Origin: Methylocystis sp. MJC1
GTDB lineage: Bacteria > Pseudomonadota > Alphaproteobacteria > Rhizobiales > Beijerinckiaceae
NCBI RefSeq assembly: GCF_026427715.1
Contig: NZ_CP107558.1
Span: forward strand, 3,627,001 to 3,691,000
Reading direction: 5' to 3'
Length of the DNA: 64,000 nucleotides
Positions 49,796 through 64,000 of the stretch are shown here, one piece after another (the stretch's first letter is position 1; every line of letters starts with the position of its first letter). The position numbers and the translations under genes were made by a program. Below the pieces are notes generated by a model. The model ran no database searches. It was not told the origin of the DNA and saw nothing but the letters and a program-made list of their open reading frames with translations.

Positions 49796-50018
49796 CCTCG
49801 CCGCCTCAATCGTCCTTGCCGATGAATTAAGCCTGCCTCTCGCGGCTCTGTCCTGAAACAGGAAAAGGCGGACAGACGAAGGACAAACACAGTCCGAATC
49901 GGCGGCGCCCGAAAAGCGCGGCCGATTCGCTAACAACTGGTTTCTCTCGCACGGCTGGCCAAAAATTGGGCTTTGATGCAAGAATGACGGGCCATTCTTG
50001 GCGCAGGGAAGAAACGAC

Positions 50019-50279
50019 ATGAAAAAGGAAAGCTTCAACGGCGCGACTCTCGCTGTCGCGGCGGTCTCAATCGCGCTCGCGGGCGCCGCGCCGGCCGCGA
50101 AGGCCGAGACGACCGCCGCGAGAGTTCATTGCCTCGGCGCCAATAGCTGCAAGGGTAAAAGCGATTGCCATTCGCCCAAAAACGCCTGCAAGGCCATGAA
50201 CTCCTGCAAGGGCAAAGGCTGGGTCTATATGGAAACGGCTCAGGCCTGCGAAGCGGCCGGCGGCAAGACGCTCGACTGA
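50019..50279 (+). CDS. Bufferin-type peptide precursor (BufA2-like)
   Basis: An 86-residue secreted peptide: signal sequence ending AKAE, then the Cys-rich segment HCLGANSCKGKSDC, followed by NACKAMNSCKGKGW and a last Cys77. The spacing of its six cysteines matches BufA2, whose cysteines are modified by the multinuclear iron oxidase BufB (DUF692) to bind copper. Neither BufB nor BufC is in the window, so modification would need a distant enzyme. AAGAAACGAC precedes the ATG. Confidence 0.85.
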   Translation: MKKESFNGATLAVAAVSIALAGAAPAAKAETTAARVHCLGANSCKGKSDCHSPKNACKAMNSCKGKGWVYMETAQACEAAGGKTLD

Positions 50280-50339: not shown

Positions 50340-53300
50340 TTATGGCGCCGTGAGCCCCTCTCGCCCCGGGACAGACGCCTCGCTGCGCAGCCGGACGAAG
50401 GTCTCGATCACGAAATAGAACACCGGCAGGATGAAGAGCGTCAGCAGGGTGGCGACGATCAGGCCGCCCACGATGACGGTCGCTAGACTGCGCTGCACGT
50501 CGCTGCCGATGCCCGTCGCCATCGCCGCGGGCAGCATGCCGACCGTCGCGACGGTCGAGGTCATGAGCACGGGCCGGAAGCGCTCGCCCGCGCCCTCCAG
50601 CACGCCGGTCCTGATGGCGGCGATGAAGTCGCGTCGCATTGCTTGCGGCTCGACTTCGGTCGCAACCCAACGGGCGCGCGCCGCCGCGATGCGAACCGCC
50701 GACGTCCGGTTGAGGTTGGCGACCATGATGATGCCATTCTGCACGGCGACGCCGAACAGCGCCAGAAAGCCGACGCCCGTCGCGACATTCAGGCTGTCGC
50801 TTCGGATATGCAGGGACACAAGGCCGCCAAGCGTCGCAAGCGGCACGACGCCGAGAATGAGCAGCGCATGCCGAAACTTCCCGAAGCCGATGAAGAGGAA
50901 GAGGAGCATCAGAACCAGCACGGCGCCGACGATGGTCGTCAATCGCTTCTGCGCACGCTGCTGGTTTTCGAATTTGCCGCCCCAAACCACCTTGTACAGC
51001 GACTGGTCGTATTTCACATTCTTGGCGATGCGTTCCTGGGCGTCCTCGAGATAGGAGGAAAGATCACGATTCTCGTAGTCGACGCGCACGGTCAAAGAAC
51101 GCTTCGTCTTGTCGTGCGAAATGGCGCTCTCGCCGTTTTGCAGGCTGATCTTCGAGATCTGCGACAACGCGATCTGCGCGCCCGCTGACGTGTTCACAAG
51201 CAGATTGCCGAGCGCCTCGGGGCTGTTGCGCGCCTCCGGCGGAAAGCGAAGCGTGACGTCGTAGCTTCTCTCGTTGACGTAGATTTGCCCGATCGGGCTG
51301 CCACCGACGCCGGTCTGAATGAGAGTGGCAACATCGGCGACGTTGATCCCATAACGCGCCGCGAGGCTTCGATCGATATGGAAGGCGATCTGCGGAATCG
51401 GCGGCTCCTGCACGATCGACGTCTGCGAGGTGCCGGGCGTGTCTTTCAAAGTGGCGACGATCTCACTCGCGATTCGCCGGCTCTCCTTGAGATCCTGGCC
51501 GAACACTTTGACCACCAGCGCGGAGTGCGCGCCGGCGACCAGATCGTTCACATTGTCGATGATCGGCTGGCTGATGCCGACTTCCACTCCCGGCAGCTGC
51601 TTCAAGCGCTCCGCGAGGCGACGCACCAAATCAGCCTTGGTTTCGCCGGCCGGCCATTCGTCATAGGGCCTCAATCCGACAGGCGCTTCAATGTGGCTCA
51701 ACGTCCAGGGATCGGTCCGATCGTCGTTGCGGCCAATCTGGGAGACAACGAAGGATGCTTCGGGGAACTCCATGACGGCGTTGCGAAGGTCGCGGGCCAT
51801 TTCCTCCGCCTTGCCGATGGAAATGCCGCTCGGCAGCTGCACCTGGAGCCAAAGAGAGCCCTCGTCCAGATTGGGCAGGAACTCGCGGCCGATCGTGGCG
51901 CCTGTGACGACGACCCCGAGGAAGGCCGCGGCCGCCGCGCCATAAATGATGCGGGGGCGGTCGACGCATATCGCGAGCAGCTCGCCATATTTGTCCTGCA
52001 GCCACTCCAGCGGCACATTGTGGAAAATCTCGGAGGGCTTGTGAAAAGCGATATAGGCGAGCCCCGGCACGAGCAGAAGCGAACAAAGCAAGGCGCCGAA
52101 AAGCGCATAGGAAATCGTATAGGCGACCGGCGAGAAGAGCTTGGCTTCGACGCGCTCCAGGCCGAGAAGCGGCAGATAGGCCGTGATGATGATGATCGTC
52201 GCGAAGAAAATCGGATTGACGACCTGACGGACGATGAATTGGACGGTATCGGTCTCGAGCGGGCGGGTCGGATTATGCTCGCGCACACGCAATATGGCTT
52301 CCGTCACGACGATCGCGCCATCGACGATGACGCCGAAGTCGATGGAGCCGAGCGACAGAAGATTGGCGGGCAGCTTCGTCAGATTCATGAGAATGAAGGT
52401 CACGCTGAGCGCGATGGGAATCGTCACGGCGACGACGATCGCGCTTCGTGGGCTGCCCAGGAACAGGATCAGCACGATGAAGACCAGCGCGACGCCCTCG
52501 CCGACCGTATGGCCAACCTTGGAGACGGTCGCCTCCACGAGGTCGTTGCGGTCGAGATAAGGCACAATGCGGACGCCCTGCGGCGCCAACTCAGCCTGCA
52601 ACTGCTCCAGCCGCTCGTGCACGGCCTTCAAGACCTGTCCGGCGTTTTCGCCTTTGAGCATCTGGATCGTGCCCTGAATCGCGTCAGAGTTGTGATCCTT
52701 GCCGAGAACGCCTTCGCGTTCCTGGCTGCTCATTTGCGGCGTGCCGAGGTCGCGCGTGAGAATGGGCGTGCCCTTGCTCTGCGTGACGACGATATTGCCG
52801 AGATCTTCGAGATTGCGCACCAGACCGATGCTGCGGATGACGTAGGATTGCTCGCCGCGCGTGATGCGGCTACCGCCCGAGCTCGCGCTATTGCTCGAAA
52901 TCGCGGTCGACACGTCGGAGAGGCCGAGGCCATAGCGCTGTAGCGACAGCGGATCGATCTCGAGCTGGAACTGCCGCGTCAGCCCGCCGAAATTGGCCAC
53001 GCTCGCAACGCCCGGAACCTGATTGAGCGCGGGCAACACCACCCAGCGTTGAATCTCGGAGAGCTCCGCGAGATTCTTTTCATCCGACTCCAGCGAATAG
53101 CGAAGAATTTCGCCGGCCGGCCCGGTCAACGGCCCGAGCGTCGGCTGAATATTCGATGGCAGGGACACCTGGCTGACGCGCTCCAGCACGCGCTGCCTCG
53201 CCCAATAATCCTCGACGCCGTCCTTGAAGACCATGGTGATCAGGGACAGGGCGAAGGTGCTGCTCGATCGTATCGTAACGAGGCCTGGCGTGCTCGCGAG

Positions 53301-53516
53301 CGCGCGTTCGAGCGGCACGGTGATCTGCTGCTCGACCTCTTCGGCTGCGAGGCCTCTCGCCTGGGTGGTGACGATCACCGTCACGTCGCCGACGTCGGGA
53401 TAGGCTTCGAGCTTGAGTTGGGTCCAGGAATAGAGGCCGTAGAAGAAAATCAGGATCGTCGCCAGAATGACGATCAGCCGCTTCTGGAGGCAGAGTTCGA
53501 CGGCGCGTTCAATCAT
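50340..53516 (-). CDS. Heavy-metal efflux RND transporter, CzcA-like
   Basis: A 1,058-residue inner-membrane RND pump that uses proton influx to expel metal across the envelope. The TM4 motif DFGVIVDGAIVVTEA follows the divalent-cation (Czc/Ncc, HME1-type) pattern rather than the CusA pattern. VDGAIVVTEA differs in the last residues (VEN is TEA here). Typical ends PVFYFVIETFV and two large periplasmic domains are present. ATG 53516 gives the normal family start (MIERAVELCLQKRL) and overlaps the adaptor gene by 8 bp. No outer-membrane channel gene accompanies it. Confidence 0.93.
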   Translation of the reverse strand: MIERAVELCLQKRLIVILATILIFFYGLYSWTQLKLEAYPDVGDVTVIVTTQARGLAAEEVEQQITVPLERALASTPGLVTIRSSSTFALSLITMVFKDGVEDYWARQRVLERVSQVSLPSNIQPTLGPLTGPAGEILRYSLESDEKNLAELSEIQRWVVLPALNQVPGVASVANFGGLTRQFQLEIDPLSLQRYGLGLSDVSTAISSNSASSGGSRITRGEQSYVIRSIGLVRNLEDLGNIVVTQSKGTPILTRDLGTPQMSSQEREGVLGKDHNSDAIQGTIQMLKGENAGQVLKAVHERLEQLQAELAPQGVRIVPYLDRNDLVEATVSKVGHTVGEGVALVFIVLILFLGSPRSAIVVAVTIPIALSVTFILMNLTKLPANLLSLGSIDFGVIVDGAIVVTEAILRVREHNPTRPLETDTVQFIVRQVVNPIFFATIIIITAYLPLLGLERVEAKLFSPVAYTISYALFGALLCSLLLVPGLAYIAFHKPSEIFHNVPLEWLQDKYGELLAICVDRPRIIYGAAAAAFLGVVVTGATIGREFLPNLDEGSLWLQVQLPSGISIGKAEEMARDLRNAVMEFPEASFVVSQIGRNDDRTDPWTLSHIEAPVGLRPYDEWPAGETKADLVRRLAERLKQLPGVEVGISQPIIDNVNDLVAGAHSALVVKVFGQDLKESRRIASEIVATLKDTPGTSQTSIVQEPPIPQIAFHIDRSLAARYGINVADVATLIQTGVGGSPIGQIYVNERSYDVTLRFPPEARNSPEALGNLLVNTSAGAQIALSQISKISLQNGESAISHDKTKRSLTVRVDYENRDLSSYLEDAQERIAKNVKYDQSLYKVVWGGKFENQQRAQKRLTTIVGAVLVLMLLFLFIGFGKFRHALLILGVVPLATLGGLVSLHIRSDSLNVATGVGFLALFGVAVQNGIIMVANLNRTSAVRIAAARARWVATEVEPQAMRRDFIAAIRTGVLEGAGERFRPVLMTSTVATVGMLPAAMATGIGSDVQRSLATVIVGGLIVATLLTLFILPVFYFVIETFVRLRSEASVPGREGLTAP

Positions 53517-54690
53517 TGAGCAGAACTCCGCCGCGCACGACGATCCGCTCGCCGGGCTCCAGCCCGCGCACGATGGTCGCCCCCTCGTAATCGGAGTCGA
53601 TGACGACCGTTCTTCTTCGGAAGGTCCAGGGCGCCGTTTCGACGAAGACGCTGGTCGTGTCATTCACGATGAACAGCGCCGAGGAAGGGACAAGAATGCT
53701 TTGCGTCGCGGGCGCGAAGAAGCGAACCGTCGCGAACATGTTCAGCTTGAAGATGCCATAAGGGTTATCGAAGGAGATGCGCACCTTGTTGCGGCGCGTA
53801 TCCGCCTCGAGCAATTGGCTGATCACCTGGACGCGGCCCGAGAAGACTTCTCCGGGATAGGCGAGAAGAGAAACCTCCACCCGCTCGTCCTTTTGGACGA
53901 AGGAAAGATCCTTCTCCTGTACGCTGGCCGTCACCCAGATCTTTTCGAGATTGGAGATGGTCATCATCGAGTCGGTGGCGCTGTCGATGAAATCGCCCGG
54001 CGCAGTGTCGAGCGAGGTGATTGTGCCGTCGATGGGCGTCGTGAGCACAATCTGCCGCTGGCCCGAGACCTTTCCGCTGTCCCCGATGACGTCGAGGCGC
54101 GCCTCGGCGCGCTTGAGCTCGGAGATCGCCTGCCCATAATCGTTTTGCGCCTGCTCCAGCTCCTTGAGCGCGAGGCCGCCGGCCTTATTGAGGCTCACGG
54201 ATCTTTCCATCGCGCTCTTGGTGAGTTTCACCGTCGCGCGCGCTTTCTCGGCGTCGGCCACCGCCTGCGCGAGATCGCCAGAGTCGATCGTCGCGAGGCG
54301 TTGCCCTTTCTTGACGGCGTCGCCCAGCGAGATGTTGAGCTCGCCGACGCGGCCCGACACCGGCGCTAGAATTTTGACCGTACGCGTCGGGTCGGCCTCG
54401 ACGGTTCCGGTCACCAATTTGCTGCGGCTGATGCTTTTCTGCTGAACCGGCGCGACCGCAATGCGTGTGCGATAAGGCGAGCCTTCCGGCACGAAGATCG
54501 TTCCCTGGCGCCTGATGAGCTGCGCGGCGTCGCCGCCGCCAATGGCGCCGGTCTCATGACGCTCGTCTTTCCCCGCGCCATGCCCCGACGTGACCGACCA
54601 TATGACGCTGGCCATGATCACTGCGGCCGCGGCCGCGATCGTCAATCTGGCCCGCGCGGGTAGCTCTTTGAACTTCAGGAGGACGTTCAT
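53509..54690 (-). CDS. RND efflux periplasmic adaptor (CzcB/CusB-like)
   Basis: A 393-residue membrane-fusion protein: N-terminal anchor (ARLTIAAAAAVIMASVIWSV), lipoyl/barrel-sandwich (ILAPVSGRVGELNISLGDAV), an alpha-hairpin (LEQAQNDYGQAISELKRA) and a beta-barrel/proximal domain. It links the RND pump to an outer-membrane channel. It is co-transcribed with the pump. The metal-binding N-terminal methionines of CusB are not evident. Confidence 0.92.
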   Translation of the reverse strand: MNVLLKFKELPARARLTIAAAAAVIMASVIWSVTSGHGAGKDERHETGAIGGGDAAQLIRRQGTIFVPEGSPYRTRIAVAPVQQKSISRSKLVTGTVEADPTRTVKILAPVSGRVGELNISLGDAVKKGQRLATIDSGDLAQAVADAEKARATVKLTKSAMERSVSLNKAGGLALKELEQAQNDYGQAISELKRAEARLDVIGDSGKVSGQRQIVLTTPIDGTITSLDTAPGDFIDSATDSMMTISNLEKIWVTASVQEKDLSFVQKDERVEVSLLAYPGEVFSGRVQVISQLLEADTRRNKVRISFDNPYGIFKLNMFATVRFFAPATQSILVPSSALFIVNDTTSVFVETAPWTFRRRTVVIDSDYEGATIVRGLEPGERIVVRGGVLLND

Positions 54691-55118: not shown

Positions 55119-55634
55119 TCAGCCGGCCTTATCGACCAAGGCGATCAAGCCTTTGAGCAGCGCCACGGGATCCGGCGGACAGCCGCGGATGTGGAGATCG
55201 ACCGGAATGACCTGCGAGACCGCGCCCACGCAGGCGTAGCTGCCGGCAAAGACGCCGCCGTCGAAAGCGCAATCGCCCACCGCCACGACCCATTTCGGAT
55301 CGGGCGTCGCGTTGTAGGTGCGCTCCAGCGCCTCTTTCATATTCTTGGTCACAGGGCCCGTGACGAGGAGCACGTCGGCGTGCCGAGGCGAGGCTACGAA
55401 TCGCAGACCAAAGCGCTCGAGATCATAGAAGGCGTTGCTCAGCGCGTGAATCTCGAGCTCGCAGCCGTTGCAGGAACCCGCGTCGACCTCACGGATTGAG
55501 AGACTGCGACCGAGCTTCTCGCGGGCGGTCTTTTCCAGCGCCTGTCCGAGTTCTGCGAGCGCCGCGTCTTCGGGCGGCGGCGGCGGCTCGGTCAGCGCGC
55601 CGCGCAAGAGCCCTTGAAAGAGAAATTTCTGCAT
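55119..55634 (-). CDS. Ehr/hydrogenase-4-type small subunit (NuoB/HyfI-like)
   Basis: A 171-residue [4Fe-4S] subunit homologous to NuoB and HyfI. The cluster ligands Cys55, Cys58 (SCNGCELEI), Cys122 (GDCAFDGGVF) and Cys152 (RGCPPDP) are all present, so electron transfer at this site is likely kept. It is the last gene of the operon, 13 bp after the large-subunit gene. Confidence 0.9.
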   Translation of the reverse strand: MQKFLFQGLLRGALTEPPPPPEDAALAELGQALEKTAREKLGRSLSIREVDAGSCNGCELEIHALSNAFYDLERFGLRFVASPRHADVLLVTGPVTKNMKEALERTYNATPDPKWVVAVGDCAFDGGVFAGSYACVGAVSQVIPVDLHIRGCPPDPVALLKGLIALVDKAG

Positions 55635-55647
55635 GATTCCCAGCCGC

Positions 55648-57174
55648 TTAGAGGTCGTGCCCCGAATAGGAGCAGTTGAAGGATTTGTTGCAGAGCGGGA
55701 AATCCGCGACGATGTTCCCCTTGATTGCGGCTTCGAGCAGCGGCCATTGGAACCAGGACGGGTCGCGCAGATGCGCCCGTTCGATCCGGCCGTCGGCCGA
55801 AAGGCGCAGCCAAATGAAAATATCGCCGCGGAACCCTTCCACGAGCGCAGCGCCCTCGGTCGCGCCCGGCGCCGCGCCGAGATCGGCGTGGATCGGGCCA
55901 TGAGGAAGGCGATCCAAAATCTGCTCGATGATCTCGATCGACGCTCTCACCTCGTCGAACCGCACCCAGACGCGCGCATCGACGTCGCCGCCGGTCGATT
56001 GGCCGAGCTCGAATGAGAGCGCGTCATAGGGCGCGTAGCCGATGGTCGCGCGGGCGTCGAAGCGACGGCCCGAGGCGCGGCCGATAAAACCCCCGCAGGC
56101 ATATTGGCTAGCGAGCCCGGCGCTCAGCACGCCGGTCGCAACGGTGCGGTCCTGCAGCGAGGTCGTGTCGCCATAGAGCGCCACGAGACGCGGCACCATG
56201 ACGGCGATCCAGTCCAGCAGGGAGCGCAACGTCTTTTCACCCTCCTCCGAAAGGTCCGCGGCGACGCCGCCGGGCGTGATGCGGTCCATCATCAGCCGAT
56301 GGCCGAAACAGGCAGAGGCCGCGCGGAGCAGCCTTTCGCGAACGAGACCGCATTGGGCGAGCATCAGCGCAAAGGCGGCGTCGTTGCAGATGGCGCCGAT
56401 GTCGCCGAAGTGATTGGCGAGGCGCTCGATTTCCGCCATCAAAGCGCGTAGCCACACAGCCCGCGCAGGCGGCTCGACGCCGTAAGCCGCCTCGACGGCG
56501 CGCGCGAAGGCGAAGCTGTAAGCCACGGTGCTGTCGCCGGAGACGCGCGCGGCGAGCTTCGCCGCCTTGTCGAGCGGCGCGCCCGCCATGAGGCTGTCGA
56601 CGCCCTTGTGCACGAAACCGAGCCGCTCCTCGAGCCGCACGACCACCTCGCCATTGCAGGAGAAGCGGAAATGGCCGGGCTCGATGATGCCCGCATGCAC
56701 CGGCCCGACGGGAATCTGGTGAAGCGGCGCGCCTTCGGCCGGGCAGAATTCATAACGGTCGCTCGCCGTTTCGATCGGCGCCGCCGCCCCGTCGGGATGA
56801 CGAAGCCCCCAGCGGCCGTGATCCAGCCAGTGACGCGTATCGGGCGATCCCTCGGGCGTGAGTCCGTAAAGGTCGGCGATGGTGCGTTCCTGCCTCAGCG
56901 CCGGCGGATGCCGCACGCCGACCGAGGGAAAGCGGCCCTGCGGGCAGTCGAGCGAGACGAGCCGAACCTTTGGCGTCGCCCGGTTGACGACGGCCATGAA
57001 CACATGGGCGCCGTCGCTCCAGAGGCTGAGAAGATCGGCCTTGCGGCCGGCGATCTCTTCGATCACCGCGCGCCAGCCCGCGTCATCGACCGTCTCGCGC
57101 GCCCAGGGGCGGCAGGATGCGGCCGGCGCAGGAGCCGTGCTGTTCGGGTCCTTTGGGGTGAAGAGCATTTGCAT
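55648..57174 (-). CDS. Ehr-type large subunit (HyfG/NuoCD-like) lacking nickel ligands
   Basis: A 508-residue protein with a NuoC-like N-terminal part and a NuoD/hydrogenase-large-subunit domain from about residue 155 (IPVGPVHAGIIEPGHFRFS). The N-terminal Ni ligand motif (RxCGxC in NiFe hydrogenases) reads ARVSGDSTVAYSFAFARAVE and has no cysteine. The C-terminal CxxC is not present; instead the tail has a CX5C in PLCNKSFNCSYSGHDL. It therefore cannot hold a normal NiFe site. This is the definition of energy-converting hydrogenase-related (Ehr) complexes. Its reaction is unknown. Confidence 0.85.
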   Translation of the reverse strand: MQMLFTPKDPNSTAPAPAASCRPWARETVDDAGWRAVIEEIAGRKADLLSLWSDGAHVFMAVVNRATPKVRLVSLDCPQGRFPSVGVRHPPALRQERTIADLYGLTPEGSPDTRHWLDHGRWGLRHPDGAAAPIETASDRYEFCPAEGAPLHQIPVGPVHAGIIEPGHFRFSCNGEVVVRLEERLGFVHKGVDSLMAGAPLDKAAKLAARVSGDSTVAYSFAFARAVEAAYGVEPPARAVWLRALMAEIERLANHFGDIGAICNDAAFALMLAQCGLVRERLLRAASACFGHRLMMDRITPGGVAADLSEEGEKTLRSLLDWIAVMVPRLVALYGDTTSLQDRTVATGVLSAGLASQYACGGFIGRASGRRFDARATIGYAPYDALSFELGQSTGGDVDARVWVRFDEVRASIEIIEQILDRLPHGPIHADLGAAPGATEGAALVEGFRGDIFIWLRLSADGRIERAHLRDPSWFQWPLLEAAIKGNIVADFPLCNKSFNCSYSGHDL

Positions 57175-57186
57175 ATCCCTTTGCGC

Positions 57187-58635
57187 TTATCCCAGCAGCC
57201 GCGCCACGTTCTGGAACCAGGTGACGAGATAAGACGGCAGGTAAAGGCCCGCGAGGAGCACGAGCGAAAGATGCGCGATCAGCGGTATGGGAGAGGCCGG
57301 CGCCTCTCCGGCGCTCTGCGACGGTTCGCCGAAAGCCATGCCGATGAGGCGCATCAACAGGGCGCCGAAGGCGACGAGAAGGCCCAGGACCAGCGGAACG
57401 GCCAGCCATGGCTGGCGCGCGAAGGCCGAGCTCACGACCAGAAACTCGCTCATGAAGACGCCGAGCGGCGGCATGCCGCAGATCGCCATCACGCCCACGA
57501 CCAAGCTCCAGCCCAGGACGGGATGGCTCTGGGTCAGGCCCCTGATTTCGGCAATCTTCTGCGTGCCCTTGGCCTGAGCGATGTGGCCGACAGAAAAGAA
57601 GATCGCGGATTTGGTGAGGCTGTGCATCGCCATATGCAGCAGCCCGGCGAAATTGGCTACTGGGCCGCCGATTCCGAAAGCGAAGGCGATGATGCCCATG
57701 TGCTCGATCGACGAATAGGCGAAGAGCCGTTTGATGTCGTCGCGCCGGTAGAGCATGAAGGCCGCGAAGAGCACGGAAGCCAGGCCCAGCGCGATGAGCA
57801 GCGGCCCGGGCGTGATGGCGGCGGCGTTGGCCGTGAGCAGCATTTTGAAGCGCAGCACGGCATAGAGCGCAACATTCAGCAGCAGACCGGAAAGCACCGC
57901 CGATATGGGCGTCGGACCTTCGGCATGCGCGTCGGGAAGCCAGGCGTGCATGGGCGCGAGGCCGACTTTCGTCCCATAGCCGAGCATCAGGAAGACGAAG
58001 GCCACATTGAGCAGACGCGGGCTGAGATGAGTGGCGTGCTGCATGAGCGTGGACCAGAGCATGGCGTCATAGCCCTCGCCCAGGAACGGCTCCGCCGACA
58101 TATAGACGAGGATCGTGCCAAAGAGCGCGAGCGCAATGCCGACGCTGCCGAGGATGAAATATTTCCAGGCGGCTTCGAGAGAGTCGCGCGTGCGATAAAG
58201 GCCGACCATGAGAACGGTGGTGAGCGTCGCGACTTCGACCGAGACCCACATGAGGCCGATGTTGCTGGCGAGAAGCGCCAGATTCATCGCGCACATGAGC
58301 GCCTGATACATCGCGTGGTAAAAGCGCAGATTGCCCGGCGTCAGCTTCCCCATCGCCATTTCATGCTCGATATAGCTCGCGCTGAAACCCGCCGTGGTGA
58401 AGCCGATCAGCGTCGACAGCACGACGAAGACGACGTTGAGATCGTCGACGGAGAGGAAGCTGCCGGCCTCGTGCCCCTTGGCGAGGAGCAAAAGCGCGAA
58501 AACGAAGGTTGCGCCTGACGCGGCCACATTGAGCTGGGCCGCTTTCTTGTATTCGGTCTGAAAGGCCAGGACGCCCGCCGCAACCGCCGGAATGGCGACG
58601 AGCGCGTTCGACACCATGAAAAATTCGGAAATCAT
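57187..58635 (-). CDS. Proton-pumping antiporter-like subunit (HyfF/NuoN-like)
   Basis: A 482-residue membrane protein of the Mrp/NuoLMN family with about 14 helices. The ion-translocation signature with TM Glu (MWVSVEVATLTTVLMVGLYR) and the conserved Lys/His region LGYGTKVGLAPMHAWLPDAH are present. It overlaps the HyfE-like gene by 4 bp and is 12 bp before the large subunit. Confidence 0.92.
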   Translation of the reverse strand: MISEFFMVSNALVAIPAVAAGVLAFQTEYKKAAQLNVAASGATFVFALLLLAKGHEAGSFLSVDDLNVVFVVLSTLIGFTTAGFSASYIEHEMAMGKLTPGNLRFYHAMYQALMCAMNLALLASNIGLMWVSVEVATLTTVLMVGLYRTRDSLEAAWKYFILGSVGIALALFGTILVYMSAEPFLGEGYDAMLWSTLMQHATHLSPRLLNVAFVFLMLGYGTKVGLAPMHAWLPDAHAEGPTPISAVLSGLLLNVALYAVLRFKMLLTANAAAITPGPLLIALGLASVLFAAFMLYRRDDIKRLFAYSSIEHMGIIAFAFGIGGPVANFAGLLHMAMHSLTKSAIFFSVGHIAQAKGTQKIAEIRGLTQSHPVLGWSLVVGVMAICGMPPLGVFMSEFLVVSSAFARQPWLAVPLVLGLLVAFGALLMRLIGMAFGEPSQSAGEAPASPIPLIAHLSLVLLAGLYLPSYLVTWFQNVARLLG

Positions 58636-59297
58636 CGGCGTTCTCCGCGCACGCGATCGAGTTCGTATAGATCCACCGTGTCGAAGCGTTCCCGGATGCG
58701 GAACAGGAAGATGCCGATCACGATAAAGGCGATGAGGATCGAGAAGGCGACGCTGATCTCGACGACGAGCGGCATGCCATTGGCGCCCGCGGCCGCCAGA
58801 ACGAGCCCGTTCTCCAGCGACATGAAGCCGATGATCTGACTGACGGCGTTGCGCCGCGTGACCATCATCAACATGCCCAGAAGGACGATCGTCAGCGCGA
58901 AAGCCAGGTCCTCACGCGCGAAGGGGTCGGCGGTCGTGGTTGCGGGGAGCATGACGACGAGCGAAAGCCCCATCAGGAACATCCCGACGAGCATGGTCGC
59001 GCCGATGCCGCCGACGACTTCCACAGTGCGGTGGACGCGTAGGGCCTTGACGATTTTGTGCAGGCTGAAAGGAATGATGATCGCCTTGAAGACCAGGGCG
59101 ATCGCCGCCGTCACAAAGAGATGCGGCGCCTCCTGCACATGGGCCTGCCAAGCGACTGACAAAGTCAGCACAAGGGCGTGCAGCGCGAAGATGTTGATGA
59201 GCCCGGTGAGGCGATCCTGGTAGAGCAGCATGAAGCTGACAAGCACCAGTCCGCCCGCGAGAAGCTGCGCGATGTCGAGAGACAGATGCCCTTGCAT
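58632..59297 (-). CDS. Hydrogenase-4 HyfE-like membrane subunit
   Basis: A 221-residue protein with about 6-7 helices. The HyfE/NuoK-like segment (IGFMSLENGLVLAAAGANGM) has the conserved membrane Glu. It is a typical member of group 4 hydrogenase-like membrane arms. It overlaps HyfC-like gene by one base and HyfF-like gene by 4 bp. Confidence 0.9.
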   Translation of the reverse strand: MQGHLSLDIAQLLAGGLVLVSFMLLYQDRLTGLINIFALHALVLTLSVAWQAHVQEAPHLFVTAAIALVFKAIIIPFSLHKIVKALRVHRTVEVVGGIGATMLVGMFLMGLSLVVMLPATTTADPFAREDLAFALTIVLLGMLMMVTRRNAVSQIIGFMSLENGLVLAAAGANGMPLVVEISVAFSILIAFIVIGIFLFRIRERFDTVDLYELDRVRGERR

Positions 59298-60250
59298 TAC
59301 AGGCTCCGGGTGACAAAGACGAGGAGAGTGCCGAGAAGACCGAGCATCAGCGCCGCCCCAAGGAAGTCCGACACGCGGAAGACGCGCATCTTTGCGGTCG
59401 ACACTTCGAAGAGCGCCAGTAGAAAGCCCGCGACGAAGATCTTCAGGACGTAGAAGGCGACGCCGTAGCCCATATCGGCAAGACTGCCATCCGGGTGCGC
59501 GATGCCGAAGGGGAAGAAGATGCAGCTGATGAGCGATACGTAGAGGAGAAGCTTGAGCGCGGAGGCCATTTCGATGATGGCGAGATGGCGCCCCGAATAT
59601 TCGAGGATCATCGCCTCATGCACCATGGTGAGCTCGAGATGGGTGGCGGGATTATCGACTGGAATGCGCCCATTCTCCGCGATCGCGACGATGATGAGGC
59701 CGATCAGCGCGAAGAGCACGGAGACACGCAGCGCGAAATCCGACGCCATATAGGCGGCAACCTCGGAGAGCTGGGTCGAGCCGGCGATGAGCGAGACAAT
59801 GAAGGCGATCATGATCGTCGCCGGCTCGGCGAGCGAACCGAACATCGTTTCGCGGCTCGAGCCGATGCCCCCGAAGCTCGTCCCCACATCCATGCCGGCG
59901 AGTGCCAGGAAGAAGCGGGCGGCGCCGAGCAAGGCGGTGAGCGCGATGAGATCGGCGATCCAACTGAACATCAGCCCGGTCGCGAAAGTCGGAACGAGCG
60001 ACGCCGCCACCCATGTCGTCGCGAAGATGAGATAGGGGGCTGCGCGGTAGAGCCAGGAGGCGTCATGGGCGAGCACGACGTCCTTTCTCAGCAGGCGAAT
60101 GAGATCATACCAGGGCTGCAAAAGCGGTGGCCCGCGCCGCCGCAGCAGTCGGGCTTTCACCTTGCGCGTGAATCCGATCAACACCGGCGCGAGCGCCAGC
60201 ACCAGGGCCATTTGCGCCGCTTGCGAGAAGAGGTCGAAGAGAAAGGTCAT
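59297..60250 (-). CDS. NuoH/HyfC-like membrane subunit
   Basis: A 317-residue membrane protein linking the peripheral arm to the pump subunits. The sequence IAENGRIPVDNPATHLELTM followed by EAMILEYSGRHLAI is the NuoH/HyfC signature at the quinone-site/E-channel. ATG 60250 overlaps the upstream HyfB-like gene by 4 bp; an open extension to 61042 is spurious. Confidence 0.92.
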   Translation of the reverse strand: MTFLFDLFSQAAQMALVLALAPVLIGFTRKVKARLLRRRGPPLLQPWYDLIRLLRKDVVLAHDASWLYRAAPYLIFATTWVAASLVPTFATGLMFSWIADLIALTALLGAARFFLALAGMDVGTSFGGIGSSRETMFGSLAEPATIMIAFIVSLIAGSTQLSEVAAYMASDFALRVSVLFALIGLIIVAIAENGRIPVDNPATHLELTMVHEAMILEYSGRHLAIIEMASALKLLLYVSLISCIFFPFGIAHPDGSLADMGYGVAFYVLKIFVAGFLLALFEVSTAKMRVFRVSDFLGAALMLGLLGTLLVFVTRSL

Positions 60251-62244
60251 AGCGCCACGAGGATGAGGAGAAAGACGAGGGCGGCGAAGACGAGGGCGAC
60301 ATATTCCTGGATCGACAGGAAGTTCACCACATTGAGCCGCCCCGAGCAGAACAGCACGGCCTTCGTCAGCGGTTCGTAGATGTAGTCGATGAAGCGGTCG
60401 CCGATCTCCACGGAGAAATGCGCGGCGCGCGTCTCTCCCGGAAGCGGCATGTCGAGCTTCTCGCGCACCGAGAAGGCGACGACGCCGAGCGCGCGACGGA
60501 CGGGCTGGGCAAAGCTGCTCGCCGTATATTGGCTCGCGGGGGTCGGATCGACATAGCCGCAATCCCACGGCGGCGCCCGGCGCAACGGACGCGGCCAGAT
60601 GGTTTTGATCGTCTGCGCCATCGCAAAGGCCGATAGGCCGATGAAAGCGAAGACGATCAGGCCGTTGTAGGAGCTGCGGCTCTCGGCGATGGGCGCGATT
60701 GTGAACCAGCCGATCTGGCTCTGCGCCGGCATACGGCCGCCGACAAATTCGGCCGCCGCGGGCGAGATCGTGTCGATCATGAAGCTCGGCGTAATCCCCG
60801 CCAGAAGGCAGAGAGAGATCAGCGCAAACATGGCGCGCAGCGACCATTGATCGGTCTCCTGCGCCTGCTCCGCGGCCGGCGAACGCGGGCGGCCAAGGAA
60901 GACGACGCCAAAGGCCCGCACATAGGCGCCGGCGCCCAGCGCCGCGCTCAGCGCCAGCGTCACGCCGACGGCCGGCGTGATCAGCTTCAAGATCCACTGC
61001 GGCAGCGAGGGGCTCAGAAGGATGGCCTGGAACACCAGCCACTCGGAGACGAAGCCGTTGAGCGGCGGCAGCGCGGCGATCGCCATGCAGCCCCCGAGAA
61101 AGACGAAGGCGGTTTTGGGCATCGAGCGGATCAGGCCGCCGAGCTTTTCGATGTTCTTCTCGCCCGTCGCGCCGAGGACGGCGCCAGCGCCGAAGAAGAG
61201 CGTGCTCTTGAACAAAGCGTGGTTGAAGACATGGAACAGCGCCGCGGTGAAGGCCAGCGCCGCGGGCAGCGCCTGGCCGTTGGCCTTGAAAGCCAGCGCC
61301 AGTCCGAGCGCGACGAAGATGATGCCGATGTTTTCAATGGTGCTGTAGGCGAGAAGCTTCTTAAGATCGCTCTGAACCGTCGCGAACAGCACGCCGATCA
61401 GGGCGCTCGCCGCGCCGAACACCAGCGGGTGAATGCTCCACCAGAAAGCGGGCGGGCCCAGAAGATCGAAAGCCATACGAATGAAGCCGTAAATGGCCAC
61501 CTTCGTCATGACGCCGCTCATCAGCGCCGAGACATGGCTCGGCGCGGCGGGATGAGCGAGCGGCAGCCAGATATGCAGCGGAACGAGTCCCGCCTTGGAG
61601 CCGGCCCCGAGGATGACGAGGGCGAGGACGAGGCCGGATTTCCAGGCGTCCTTAGGAACGCCACGGATCGTGTCGAAGTCATAGGCGCCGGTCGCGCCGC
61701 CAAGAACGCCGAAGGCCATGAGCAGGCACAGCGTGCCGAAGCTCGCCATGAGCAGATAAATGTAGGCGGCGGCGCGGTTTTCGGCGTGATCGTGGTGGGA
61801 AATGACCAGCGCCCAGGACGAGAGCGACATGAACTCCCAGGCGACGAGGAAGGTGAAGGCGTCGTCGGCCATCACAACGCCGTTCATGCCGGCGATAAAG
61901 GCCGGGAAGAACGGCAGCACGCGCATCGGGCTCTTCTCATGCGCCCCATAACCGATCGCATAGGCGCTCGCCGCCGCGCCGCCGAGATTGACGACCGCAA
62001 GGAAGAACGCGCTCAGCGCATCTATGCGAAAGCGCATGCCGATCCAGGGCAAGCCCAGGGGCAGCGTCGTCTGCAAGGCATGCGCGCCCCTCGGGACGAT
62101 GACCGCGAGAAAAATCACCGCGCATAATCCGCCTGTGAGCCCGTAAACGAGCCGCGTCACGTCCGCGCGGTCCTTGAAGCGGATCGAGGCCACGCCGACG
62201 CCGACCAAGGCGCCCACGCAGAGAAGGGCAAGATAAAGCGGCAT
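60247..62244 (-). CDS. Antiporter-like subunit (HyfB/NuoL-like)
   Basis: A 665-residue first subunit of the operon with about 16 helices. The region MSLSSWALVISHHDHAENRA and the Lys/His segment LGAGSKAGLVPLHIWLPLAH are typical of HyfB/NuoL. With the HyfF-like subunit it gives two pump modules. No ferredoxin-like HyfH/NuoI subunit or maturation factors (Hyp) are within the window. Confidence 0.92.
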   Translation of the reverse strand: MPLYLALLCVGALVGVGVASIRFKDRADVTRLVYGLTGGLCAVIFLAVIVPRGAHALQTTLPLGLPWIGMRFRIDALSAFFLAVVNLGGAAASAYAIGYGAHEKSPMRVLPFFPAFIAGMNGVVMADDAFTFLVAWEFMSLSSWALVISHHDHAENRAAAYIYLLMASFGTLCLLMAFGVLGGATGAYDFDTIRGVPKDAWKSGLVLALVILGAGSKAGLVPLHIWLPLAHPAAPSHVSALMSGVMTKVAIYGFIRMAFDLLGPPAFWWSIHPLVFGAASALIGVLFATVQSDLKKLLAYSTIENIGIIFVALGLALAFKANGQALPAALAFTAALFHVFNHALFKSTLFFGAGAVLGATGEKNIEKLGGLIRSMPKTAFVFLGGCMAIAALPPLNGFVSEWLVFQAILLSPSLPQWILKLITPAVGVTLALSAALGAGAYVRAFGVVFLGRPRSPAAEQAQETDQWSLRAMFALISLCLLAGITPSFMIDTISPAAAEFVGGRMPAQSQIGWFTIAPIAESRSSYNGLIVFAFIGLSAFAMAQTIKTIWPRPLRRAPPWDCGYVDPTPASQYTASSFAQPVRRALGVVAFSVREKLDMPLPGETRAAHFSVEIGDRFIDYIYEPLTKAVLFCSGRLNVVNFLSIQEYVALVFAALVFLLILVAL

Positions 62245-62277
62245 TTATGTTCCTTGAATGATTCGGCCGGGAGCCTT

Positions 62278-62318
62278 CCCTGAATAGACGGCCGCGGGCG
62301 GCGGCTGTCTATCCAGGG
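62278..62318 (-). promoter_or_regulatory. Hairpin upstream of the Ehr-like operon
   Basis: CCCTGAATAGAC (62278-62289) and GTCTATCCAGGG (62307-62318) pair at 11 of 12 positions around a GC-rich 17-base loop. It is between the SulP stop (minus strand, 62374) and the first subunit. It may be the terminator of the SulP gene or a leader structure of the operon. Confidence 0.5.
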
Positions 62319-62373
62319 AGCGTCTCACCCCGGCGACATTTCCGCCGGAATGGGGCGCGGCGCTTTGTCGCCC

Positions 62374-64000
62374 TTATGCCGGGCGCTTGCGCGGCGCCAG
62401 GGGATGGTCCGAGGTCGGGACGAGCTGGTCGAGCCCGCGGATTTCCGCATGGCCGCCCTTGTTATGGTAGTCCTCGCAGAAATGATGGAGATTTTCCATC
62501 ACCGTGTGGTCGACGGTCGCCGTTTCGGAGAGATCGAAGAAAACCTTCTTGCCCGGCGGGATAGAGGTAAGGTCGTTCTTGAGCGCAAGATAATTGCCGA
62601 AGAAGGCCGCGCCCTTCACCTGCACATGGTAGACGCCGGGCGACGTCTCCTCGATCGAGCGGTCGAGCTTGATCACATCAGCCCAAGGGATGCTGCGCCA
62701 GAAATGGAAGGCCAGCTCCGCCAGCACGCCGATGGCGACGCCAATGAGAAGGTCGGTCGCGAGCACGCCGACGATGGTGATGACGAAGACGCCCAGCTGG
62801 TCCCAGCCGATCGCCAGAGTTTTCTTGAACTCGCGCGGCGACGCCAGCCGATAGCCCGTGAAGACCAGGAGCGCCGCCAGCGAGGCGAGCGGGATCTCGT
62901 GGATCAGCTTCGGGAAAAGGGCGACGAAGACGAGCAGGAAGAGCCCGTGGAAGAAATTGGCCCAGCCCGTTTTCGCGCCATTGTTGACGTTGGCTGAGCT
63001 ACGGACGATTTCCGCGATCATCGGCAAGCCGCCAATCAGACCGCAGATAGCGTTGCCGACGCCCACCGCCGCGATATCGCGGTTGAGATCGGACGTGCGC
63101 TTGTAGGGGTCGAGCTTGTCGACCGCGGCGGCGCTCAGCAGGCTTTCGAGACTGCCGACGAGGGCGATGGTGACGACCTGCTGCCAGAAGACGAGATGGC
63201 CGACGAGCGCGAAATCGGGCGCGGCGAAGCCCGCCAGGAAATTCTCCGGCAAGGTGACGAGGAACTTCGGGCCGATCGTGAATTCATGATGCGGCAGGAA
63301 GACCATGTCCGGCAGGAAGAGGTATTTGTGCTCATCCTCGATGTCGAAATATTTGCCGAGGGCCATGCCGAGCAAGACGACGAGCAAAGGCGCCGGGATC
63401 ATCTTGAGCTTGGGATTTCCAACGAAGGTCCACAGCGCCAGAATGCCCAGACCCAGAAAGCCGATGACCGCGACCTCTGGATTCATATCCCTCAAGCTTG
63501 CCGGGATGGCGCCGATGGTCTGGAACAGCGTCTGCGCATCGGGCTTCACGCCGAGCATGACGTGAATCTGCTTGGCCATGATGATGATGCCGATCGCCGC
63601 CAGCATGCCGTGCACGGCCGAAGACGGGAAGAAGGCGCTCATCTTGCCGGCCTTCATCACGCCCATGAGAATCTGCAGCAGGGAGGCGAAGAAGATCGCA
63701 GCGAGCGTATAGCGATAGCCCGCCATGGCGTTGCCGTCGCCGAGCTCCCCCACTGAATCGAGGATCACGACGATCAGGCCGGCCGCCGGCCCCATGATGG
63801 TGACGTAGGAGCCGTTGACGCGGGAAACCAGAAGCCCGCCCACGATGGCGCTGATGATGCCCGCCTGAGGCGGAAAGCCAGAGGCCATGGCGATGCCGAG
63901 GCACAAGGGCAAGGCGATCAGGAACACAAGGAAGCCCGATATGATGTCGGAGCGCCAGCTTTCGAAAAGCCCGGCGAACCCTGACTTGGGCGGCGAGGTG
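62374..64000 (-). CDS. SulP-family inorganic anion transporter (5' end outside window)
   Basis: The N-terminus runs past the window end (the last readable codons include LFESWRSDIISGFLVFLIAL). About 540 residues are visible: the SLC26/SulP transmembrane core (LPLCLGIAMASGFPPQAGII and GPAAGLIVVILDSVG) and a C-terminal STAS domain (FDLSETATVDHTVMENLHHF). SulP proteins carry sulfate, or bicarbonate in BicA-like members. It is the same strand and directly upstream of the Ehr-like operon with a 130-bp gap holding a hairpin. The substrate is not decided here. Confidence 0.93.
   Translation of the reverse strand, partial: TSPPKSGFAGLFESWRSDIISGFLVFLIALPLCLGIAMASGFPPQAGIISAIVGGLLVSRVNGSYVTIMGPAAGLIVVILDSVGELGDGNAMAGYRYTLAAIFFASLLQILMGVMKAGKMSAFFPSSAVHGMLAAIGIIIMAKQIHVMLGVKPDAQTLFQTIGAIPASLRDMNPEVAVIGFLGLGILALWTFVGNPKLKMIPAPLLVVLLGMALGKYFDIEDEHKYLFLPDMVFLPHHEFTIGPKFLVTLPENFLAGFAAPDFALVGHLVFWQQVVTIALVGSLESLLSAAAVDKLDPYKRTSDLNRDIAAVGVGNAICGLIGGLPMIAEIVRSSANVNNGAKTGWANFFHGLFLLVFVALFPKLIHEIPLASLAALLVFTGYRLASPREFKKTLAIGWDQLGVFVITIVGVLATDLLIGVAIGVLAELAFHFWRSIPWADVIKLDRSIEETSPGVYHVQVKGAAFFGNYLALKNDLTSIPPGKKVFFDLSETATVDHTVMENLHHFCEDYHNKGGHAEIRGLDQLVPTSDHPLAPRKRPA

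Follow-up and report, generated by a model that had tools for sequence, protein, structure and literature searches.

The 64,000-nt stretch of the Methylocystis sp. MJC1 genome analysed here (the window) carries, on the minus strand of the study region 55119-64000, a gene for a SulP anion transporter followed by six genes for an Ehr-type membrane complex, in the order sulP, hyfB, hyfC, hyfE, hyfF, large subunit and small subunit (gene calls and domain/family scans). The complex is hydrogenase-like but lacks the nickel-binding cysteines, and its former nickel pocket is, as read from residue conservation, rebuilt and retained rather than decayed. The sulP gene directly precedes the complex in most of the genus loci examined. 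The reading favored here, at a probability of about 0.38 for the whole of it, is that the nickel-free Ehr complex works as a redox-driven ion pump that is co-expressed and coupled with a bicarbonate-type SulP.

The seven genes would, on this proposal, form one unit. A donor, perhaps ferredoxin, would reduce the one [4Fe-4S] cluster in the small subunit, from which the electrons would pass on to an acceptor in a polar pocket of the large subunit (S212, D214, S215, K497, N500, S502 and D507) at the place held by nickel in hydrogenases. The NuoH/HyfB/HyfF arm would move H+ or Na+ outward, and the SulP, made from the same seven-gene unit, would draw on the gradient for uptake of an anion, with bicarbonate the likeliest candidate; this energetic coupling is an attractive idea. 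The serine cycle of methanotrophs needs bicarbonate through phosphoenolpyruvate carboxylase, and it is by this route that the imported bicarbonate may be consumed.

Ehr complexes, which are nickel-free and hyf-like, are widespread, and in the excerpts of the papers drawn on here and below their function is given as unknown or conjectured (electron transfer, formate, H2, acid tolerance; PMC6349859, PMC10284858, PMC10432482, PMC4378227, PMC12542776), with redox-coupled ion translocation among the conjectures (PMC6349859, PMC10284858, PMC10432482, PMC4378227). The nickel-free Ehr is a known kind of complex; for the SulP-Ehr unit, no report of a SulP beside Ehr/hyf was found in the literature searched, where coverage is partial. 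A conserved SulP partner with kinship to carbon uptake provides a concrete and testable substrate in a methane-consuming genus, and the pairing as such a testable idea of what orphan hydrogenase-like machines do.

A nickel-free complex with a rebuilt pocket

The large subunit (55648..57174, minus strand; 508 aa; PF00346 and PF00329) joins NuoC- and NuoD/HycE-like parts and is without nickel ligands. Its closest solved relative by sequence is HycE of the Escherichia coli formate hydrogenlyase (7z0s_E), whose four nickel cysteines align with S212, S215, S502 and G505; all four cysteines that mark the group 4 [NiFe] hydrogenases are replaced. The former N-terminal nickel loop (56530..56547, minus strand) reads RVSGDS at residues 210-215, where hydrogenases carry RxCGxC, in agreement with an earlier prediction from the bare sequence (the original prediction) that an N-terminal CxxC is missing. 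A C-terminal signature, DFPLCNKSFNCSYSGHDL (residues 491-508; 55651..55704, minus strand), stands where the second nickel motif would be, and its S502 and G505 pair with the two C-terminal cysteines of HycE. Among 139 representatives of the large subunit, chosen from 174 sequences at less than 90% identity, D214, D491, S498, N500, G505 and D507 are found in 139/139, R210 and K497 in 138/139, S212, G213 and Y503 in 137/139, S502 in 133/139 and S215 in 128/139, to give the conserved signature RxSGD + DFPLxNKSFNxSYxGxDL. Because D214, S498, N500 and D507 are invariant while the nickel positions are S212, S215, S502 and G505, the pocket is taken as rebuilt and retained. By this signature, a working enzyme family can be told apart from a simple loss of nickel, and it points to residues for mutation.

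The CX5C tail of the original prediction is present in MJC1 but is not a defining feature: C495 occurs in 109/139 and C501 in 125/139 of the representatives, and neither aligns with a nickel-ligand column of HycE, on which grounds the two were rejected as a ligand pair. Structure prediction returns a HycE-like fold (best match HycE, template-modeling (TM) score 0.81 by query length, root-mean-square deviation 6.4; mean predicted local distance difference test (pLDDT) 76.7, predicted TM score 0.82), but the active site is only partly modeled, as pLDDT falls below 50 at residues 1-17, 138-190, 339-345 and 486-508.

Electron entry and the membrane arm are preserved. The NuoB-like small subunit (55119..55634, minus strand; PF01058) has one [4Fe-4S] site of four conserved cysteines, of which C56, C59 and C123 (numbered from the codon at 55637) are invariant (165/165) across the aligned sequences and C153 is present in all but one (164/165). 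The hyfB-like antiporter subunit (60247..62244, minus strand; 665 aa; NCBIfam hydrogenase 4 subunit B, 812 bits, cut-off 667) retains E137 (152/152), K217 (151/152), K248 (150/152) and K346 (151/152), and the hyfF-like antiporter subunit (57187..58635, minus strand; 482 aa; NCBIfam hydrogenase 4 subunit F, 818 bits, cut-off 533) retains E134 (165/165), K223 (164/165) and K342 (164/165). The hyfC/NuoH-like membrane anchor (59297..60250, minus strand; 317 aa; PF00146) has E192, E206, E212 and E217, all in 156/156. The remaining membrane subunit is hyfE-like (NuoK-like; 58632..59297, minus strand; 221 aa), with a match of 84 bits to the NCBIfam hydrogenase 4 membrane subunit that is below the cut-off of 136. 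Near-invariance of the cluster cysteines, the antiporter Glu and Lys residues and the NuoH-like Glu residues indicates that electron entry and pumping are both maintained by selection; thus, as far as sequence can tell, the complex likely pumps ions. The predicted four cluster cysteines and two antiporter-like pumps are both borne out. With a four-cysteine small subunit of the hydrogenase type, antiporter-like and NuoH-like membrane subunits, and a large subunit without CxxC nickel motifs, assignment of the six-gene complex to the Ehr type, nickel-free and still equipped to pump, is well supported.

The six genes were described beforehand as overlapping; all are where they were placed on the minus strand, but only three of the five junctions overlap (B/C, C/E and E/F), the other two being gaps of 12 and 13 bases. 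The order B-C-E-F-large-small recurs across complete Ehr loci, such that the arrangement is not due to chance. Variants of this layout include two consecutive hyfB-like genes (L047, L076, L196, L200, L201 and L203) and a small-subunit gene that lies upstream of hyfB, inverted on the other strand (L164 and L165).

Compared to the Ehr complexes of Acidithiobacillus ferrooxidans and Nitrospira (hyfBCEFGI; e.g., PMC7735108 for A. ferrooxidans), the MJC1 complex has the same six gene names as far as those accounts are available, the antiporter-like subunits and, as is reported for them, a large subunit without nickel motifs, but it differs in having sulP and a divergent OmpR/EnvZ-like pair upstream. 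It shares HyfB, HyfE and HyfF relatives with E. coli formate hydrogenlyase/hydrogenase-4, and its large subunit is nearest HycE by sequence and fold; by contrast, the nickel cysteines are Ser, Ser, Ser and Gly, and the cluster is without a ferredoxin-like, formate dehydrogenase or HyfD gene. The architecture is that of complex I (NuoB/C/D/H/K/L/M-like), with the difference that a Gly occupies the loop position of the quinone-site Tyr of complex I, and that an NADH or NuoI module is absent. In the gene list and Pfam scan, the seven genes encode no NuoI-like, ferredoxin, formate dehydrogenase or NADH module.

At a threshold of E <= 1e-60, 32/385 sampled genomes of the class (Alphaproteobacteria) have a close Ehr large subunit, as do 62/398 genomes of the phylum sample, in which family f203 is over-represented. 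Plasmids, among them those of Rhizobium, Azospirillum and Cupriavidus, also carry matches, 81 in all, and the weaker ones include genes annotated hycE or hyfG. Of the Methylocystis-genus genomes, 22/25 have the large subunit (one only as two fragments), and two of the three without Ehr are only 77-81% complete.

The SulP partner

The SulP transporter (550 aa in all; 62374..64000, minus strand; PF00916) stands upstream of the complex on the same strand, as had been claimed. Its start codon is at 64026, 26 bases past the window end (full open reading frame (ORF), L113:9374-11026). Genes for an OmpR/EnvZ-type response regulator and histidine kinase run divergently from sulP. The synteny was examined at 21 genus loci, made up of that of the window and 20 of the 24 further strong matches in the genus, and SulP is directly upstream of Ehr in 19, one of which is cut by a contig end; it is missing at L129 and at L133, whose operon is truncated. 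A set of named genus loci, partly from the same genomes, has SulP in L033-L042 and L054 and none in L043-L045, while L064 is too short. The divergent response regulator accompanies 15/19 SulP-linked loci and the kinase 14/19; the regulator is absent there in L115, L116 and L134, and L126 is cut. A quickly built tree of 161 large subunits places the 22 SulP-linked rows together with L064 in a single group (support 100) that stands beside five genus copies without SulP. The MJC1 genome has three SulP genes, and from this number a rough estimate of the same-strand SulP neighbors expected by chance is less than 0.1 per 100-130 loci.

A second adjacency is seen on a distant contig, G591:C135 (L248), where a SulP 56% identical to that of MJC1 is followed by a HyfB-type gene. 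The contig ends inside hyfB. The SulP is nearest those of gamma-methanotrophs (77% to Methyloprofundus), while the HyfB is nearest Sulfurimonas; because of the latter, assignment of the contig to a gamma-methanotroph was dropped. It more likely derives from Campylobacterota and is probably a stray in bin G591 (guanine-plus-cytosine content 35% versus 43%). Among 74 genomes in the family of G591, no other has this SulP at E <= 1e-100.

Membership in the SulP family is clear (PF00916, 190 bits, rising to 201 bits with the complete protein; cut-off 23.2), and the nearest named SulP is from Methylocystis iwaonis (93% identical). A survey of 119 evenly drawn genomes of one other class (apparently Gammaproteobacteria) finds 14 relatives in 13 genomes, and half of these relatives are in an inorganic-carbon setting: three are linked to DabA (G803, G829 and G847, with a distance of 2.9 kb and opposite strands in G847) and four to beta-carbonic anhydrase (adjacent in G522 and G819, fused in G819 and G889). 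In a tree of 35 SulPs, the methanotroph/Ehr-linked group (support 86/91) joins the DabA-linked group at 92/96, the DabA-linked group itself having support of only 81/55; a carbonic anhydrase-linked clade lies outside these two groups, and DauA farther still. MJC1 has a second SulP, 38% identical to the first, that is paired with an adjacent beta-carbonic anhydrase (L250:5400-7734). Outside these genomes, bicarbonate import is the predicted role of can-sulP in A. ferrooxidans, where the can2 transcript declines with rising CO2 (PMC6458275), and Methylococcus capsulatus has a beta-carbonic anhydrase and a SulP in one operon (PMC11423575), in the parts of the two papers available. On this indirect evidence, the balance tips somewhat toward a bicarbonate-type SulP. 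A carbon-related setting is also in print for a hyf complex: in Acidithiobacillus caldus, as far as the account at hand goes (PMC3826726), a hyf cluster taken for an H2-making enzyme lies beside a beta-carbonic anhydrase gene, and the core hyf copy is located with carbon-fixation genes.

The MJC1 unit resembles the SulP-carbonic anhydrase pairs and fusions in having a SulP of a related branch, yet it is a pump complex and not a carbonic anhydrase that follows sulP. Similarly, it shares with DAB an antiporter-type subunit and a SulP whose relatives adjoin DabA, but the MJC1 genome is without DabA (no match to PF10070). One SulP of the same subfamily is encoded on a Methylomagnum plasmid (L246:6827-13632), shortly downstream of genes annotated amoA, amoB and amoC, with neither Ehr nor carbonic anhydrase adjacent.

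Competing explanations

Several results weigh against a coupled bicarbonate unit. Of the SulP relatives surveyed, 7/14 have no DabA or beta-carbonic anhydrase in view. When scored without its first 33 residues, the MJC1 SulP passes neither the BicA cut-off (NF050096, 111 bits versus 880) nor that of DauA (NF008660, 163 bits versus 614). Conservation of SulP-Ehr synteny, proposed beforehand as a check, is real within the genus but scarce beyond it: among 137 non-genus Ehr loci (65 named and 72 others, some cut and some genomes in both sets), SulP flanks only three (L075, L097 and L098), which form one clade of the large-subunit tree; those of L075 and L097 were scanned and are DauA-type, and that of L098 is 88% identical to them. 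Even within the genus, one clade of Ehr copies has no upstream SulP (L043-L045, L129 and the truncated L133). A link of the complex to bicarbonate, put forward as a testable idea in the original prediction, finds indirect support on the SulP side in the genus synteny, the second SulP-hyfB adjacency, the DabA- and carbonic anhydrase-linked relatives and the SulP-carbonic anhydrase pair of MJC1 itself; as a general rule for the complex it is not supported. A profile built from 25 beta-carbonic anhydrase sequences detects none in the 173 Ehr loci, whose flanks are in some cases cut (the alpha, gamma and zeta types were not searched). RuBisCO, taken as a marker of carbon fixation, co-occurs with Ehr in the phylum sample (37/62 Ehr genomes versus 58/336 others, p 3e-11), also when family f203 is removed (about 14/32 versus 25/303, p 9e-7, the latter set still holding some f203 genomes), but not significantly within the order of MJC1 (6/10 versus 15/36, p 0.25). 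As these counts are uncorrected for kinship, with RuBisCO-like proteins set aside by hand from bit scores, and the association is weak within the order, RuBisCO was dropped as main evidence. In 110 flank proteins hand-picked from 463 (ORFs under 100 aa excluded; some may be spurious), no widely recurring donor gene is apparent among the 25 of 131 families listed, of which HTH_3 is the commonest (4/110) and a pyridine-nucleotide oxidoreductase has 3/110. Finally, the hyfBCEF genes of an acid-tolerant comammox organism are up at low pH in the portion of the study available (PMC13109103), which points to pH rather than carbon.

Alternatively, the complex may be a general-use redox ion pump (e.g., a quinone- or ferredoxin-linked reductase, or a device for pH homeostasis) to which the SulP is a mere neighbor in the genus, uncoupled even if it perhaps shares a promoter and two-component control with the complex. 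This explanation is a tentative one but is to be taken seriously: 134/137 non-genus loci have no SulP in the fetched flank, the complex resides on chromosomes and plasmids, often behind a small XRE-type regulator and with unlike flanks, the SulP-linked loci are a single tree group, and an Ehr-type complex adjoins CO dehydrogenase in Ca. Nitrospira nitrosa (PMC5596200, in part). It accounts less readily for SulP adjacency being kept in 19/21 genus loci even as the large subunits drop to ~68% identity, and for the distant contig, where a SulP of the same subfamily again adjoins hyfB.

It is unlikely that the SulP instead carries another anion (sulfate, formate or dicarboxylate) and that the unit serves the metabolism of that anion, for example by processing formate, whose oxidation would supply the complex with electrons. 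Roles tied to formate have been suggested for FDH-Ehr (PMC6349859), for A. ferrooxidans (PMC7735108) and for the core hyf copy of A. caldus, which has a formate dehydrogenase a few genes away (PMC3826726). The DauA-type (dicarboxylate) SulPs of L075 and L097 also fit another anion. By contrast, the tree sets the Methylocystis SulP at a distance from DauA and together with the DabA-linked SulPs, and the listed flank families (25 of 131, for the 110 proteins) include no formate dehydrogenase.

The idea that the complex is no longer a redox enzyme, and that its altered pocket serves inorganic-carbon uptake in the manner of DAB, by hydrating CO2 or moving protons, appears quite improbable. DAB re-uses an antiporter-like subunit (PMC13144422, in part), relatives of the SulP subfamily adjoin DabA, and one genus genome (G002) has DabA but no Ehr; yet the [4Fe-4S] cysteines are nearly invariant, and five of the six genus genomes with DabA (G002, G005, G016, G018, G020 and G022, of 22 searched) have it together with Ehr.

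Cyanobacterial NDH-1MS is a complex-I-derived machine for inorganic-carbon uptake. An extension of the coupled-pump proposal would place the SulP and nickel-free Ehr beside NDH-1MS and DAB as a third machine of this kind, in which the Ehr arm, by redox chemistry or by proton flow in the rebuilt pocket, directly powers or completes bicarbonate accumulation in methanotrophs; this broader idea is rather unlikely.

Regulators and neighboring genes

The gap between sulP and hyfB is about 130 bases in the MJC1 genome versus about 35 in the nearest relatives and contains a 41-base inverted repeat (62278..62318, strand not assigned) that was read from the sequence and is not among the terminator-like sites of the scan. 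An ORF cluster found in 58/173 Ehr loci, mostly just upstream of hyfB and including the SulP-less Methylocystis L043-L045, resembles the small XRE-type helix-turn-helix regulators annotated at this place in two plasmids; such a regulator lies just before hyfB at L244:6548-6841 and L245:6590-6835. It is as if sulP and the two-component pair took the place of the XRE-type regulator. Downstream of a second Methylocystis Ehr copy (L044:7900-10627), a broken SulP piece is encoded on the other strand, adjoining a response regulator like the one of the MJC1 sulP-Ehr operon.

The seven SulP relatives without a partner in view (L256 and L258-L263) are 750-770 aa proteins with a long C-terminal part, which in the four scanned matches no other Pfam family and in the one piece compared has no PDB match. 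Beside the Ehr operon, the window encodes an RND efflux pump and membrane-fusion protein (50340-54690; ACR_tran and HlyD). At 49998-50279, it also encodes a small cysteine-rich, secreted-looking protein with no Pfam match, possibly a metal binder of the bufferin-like kind.

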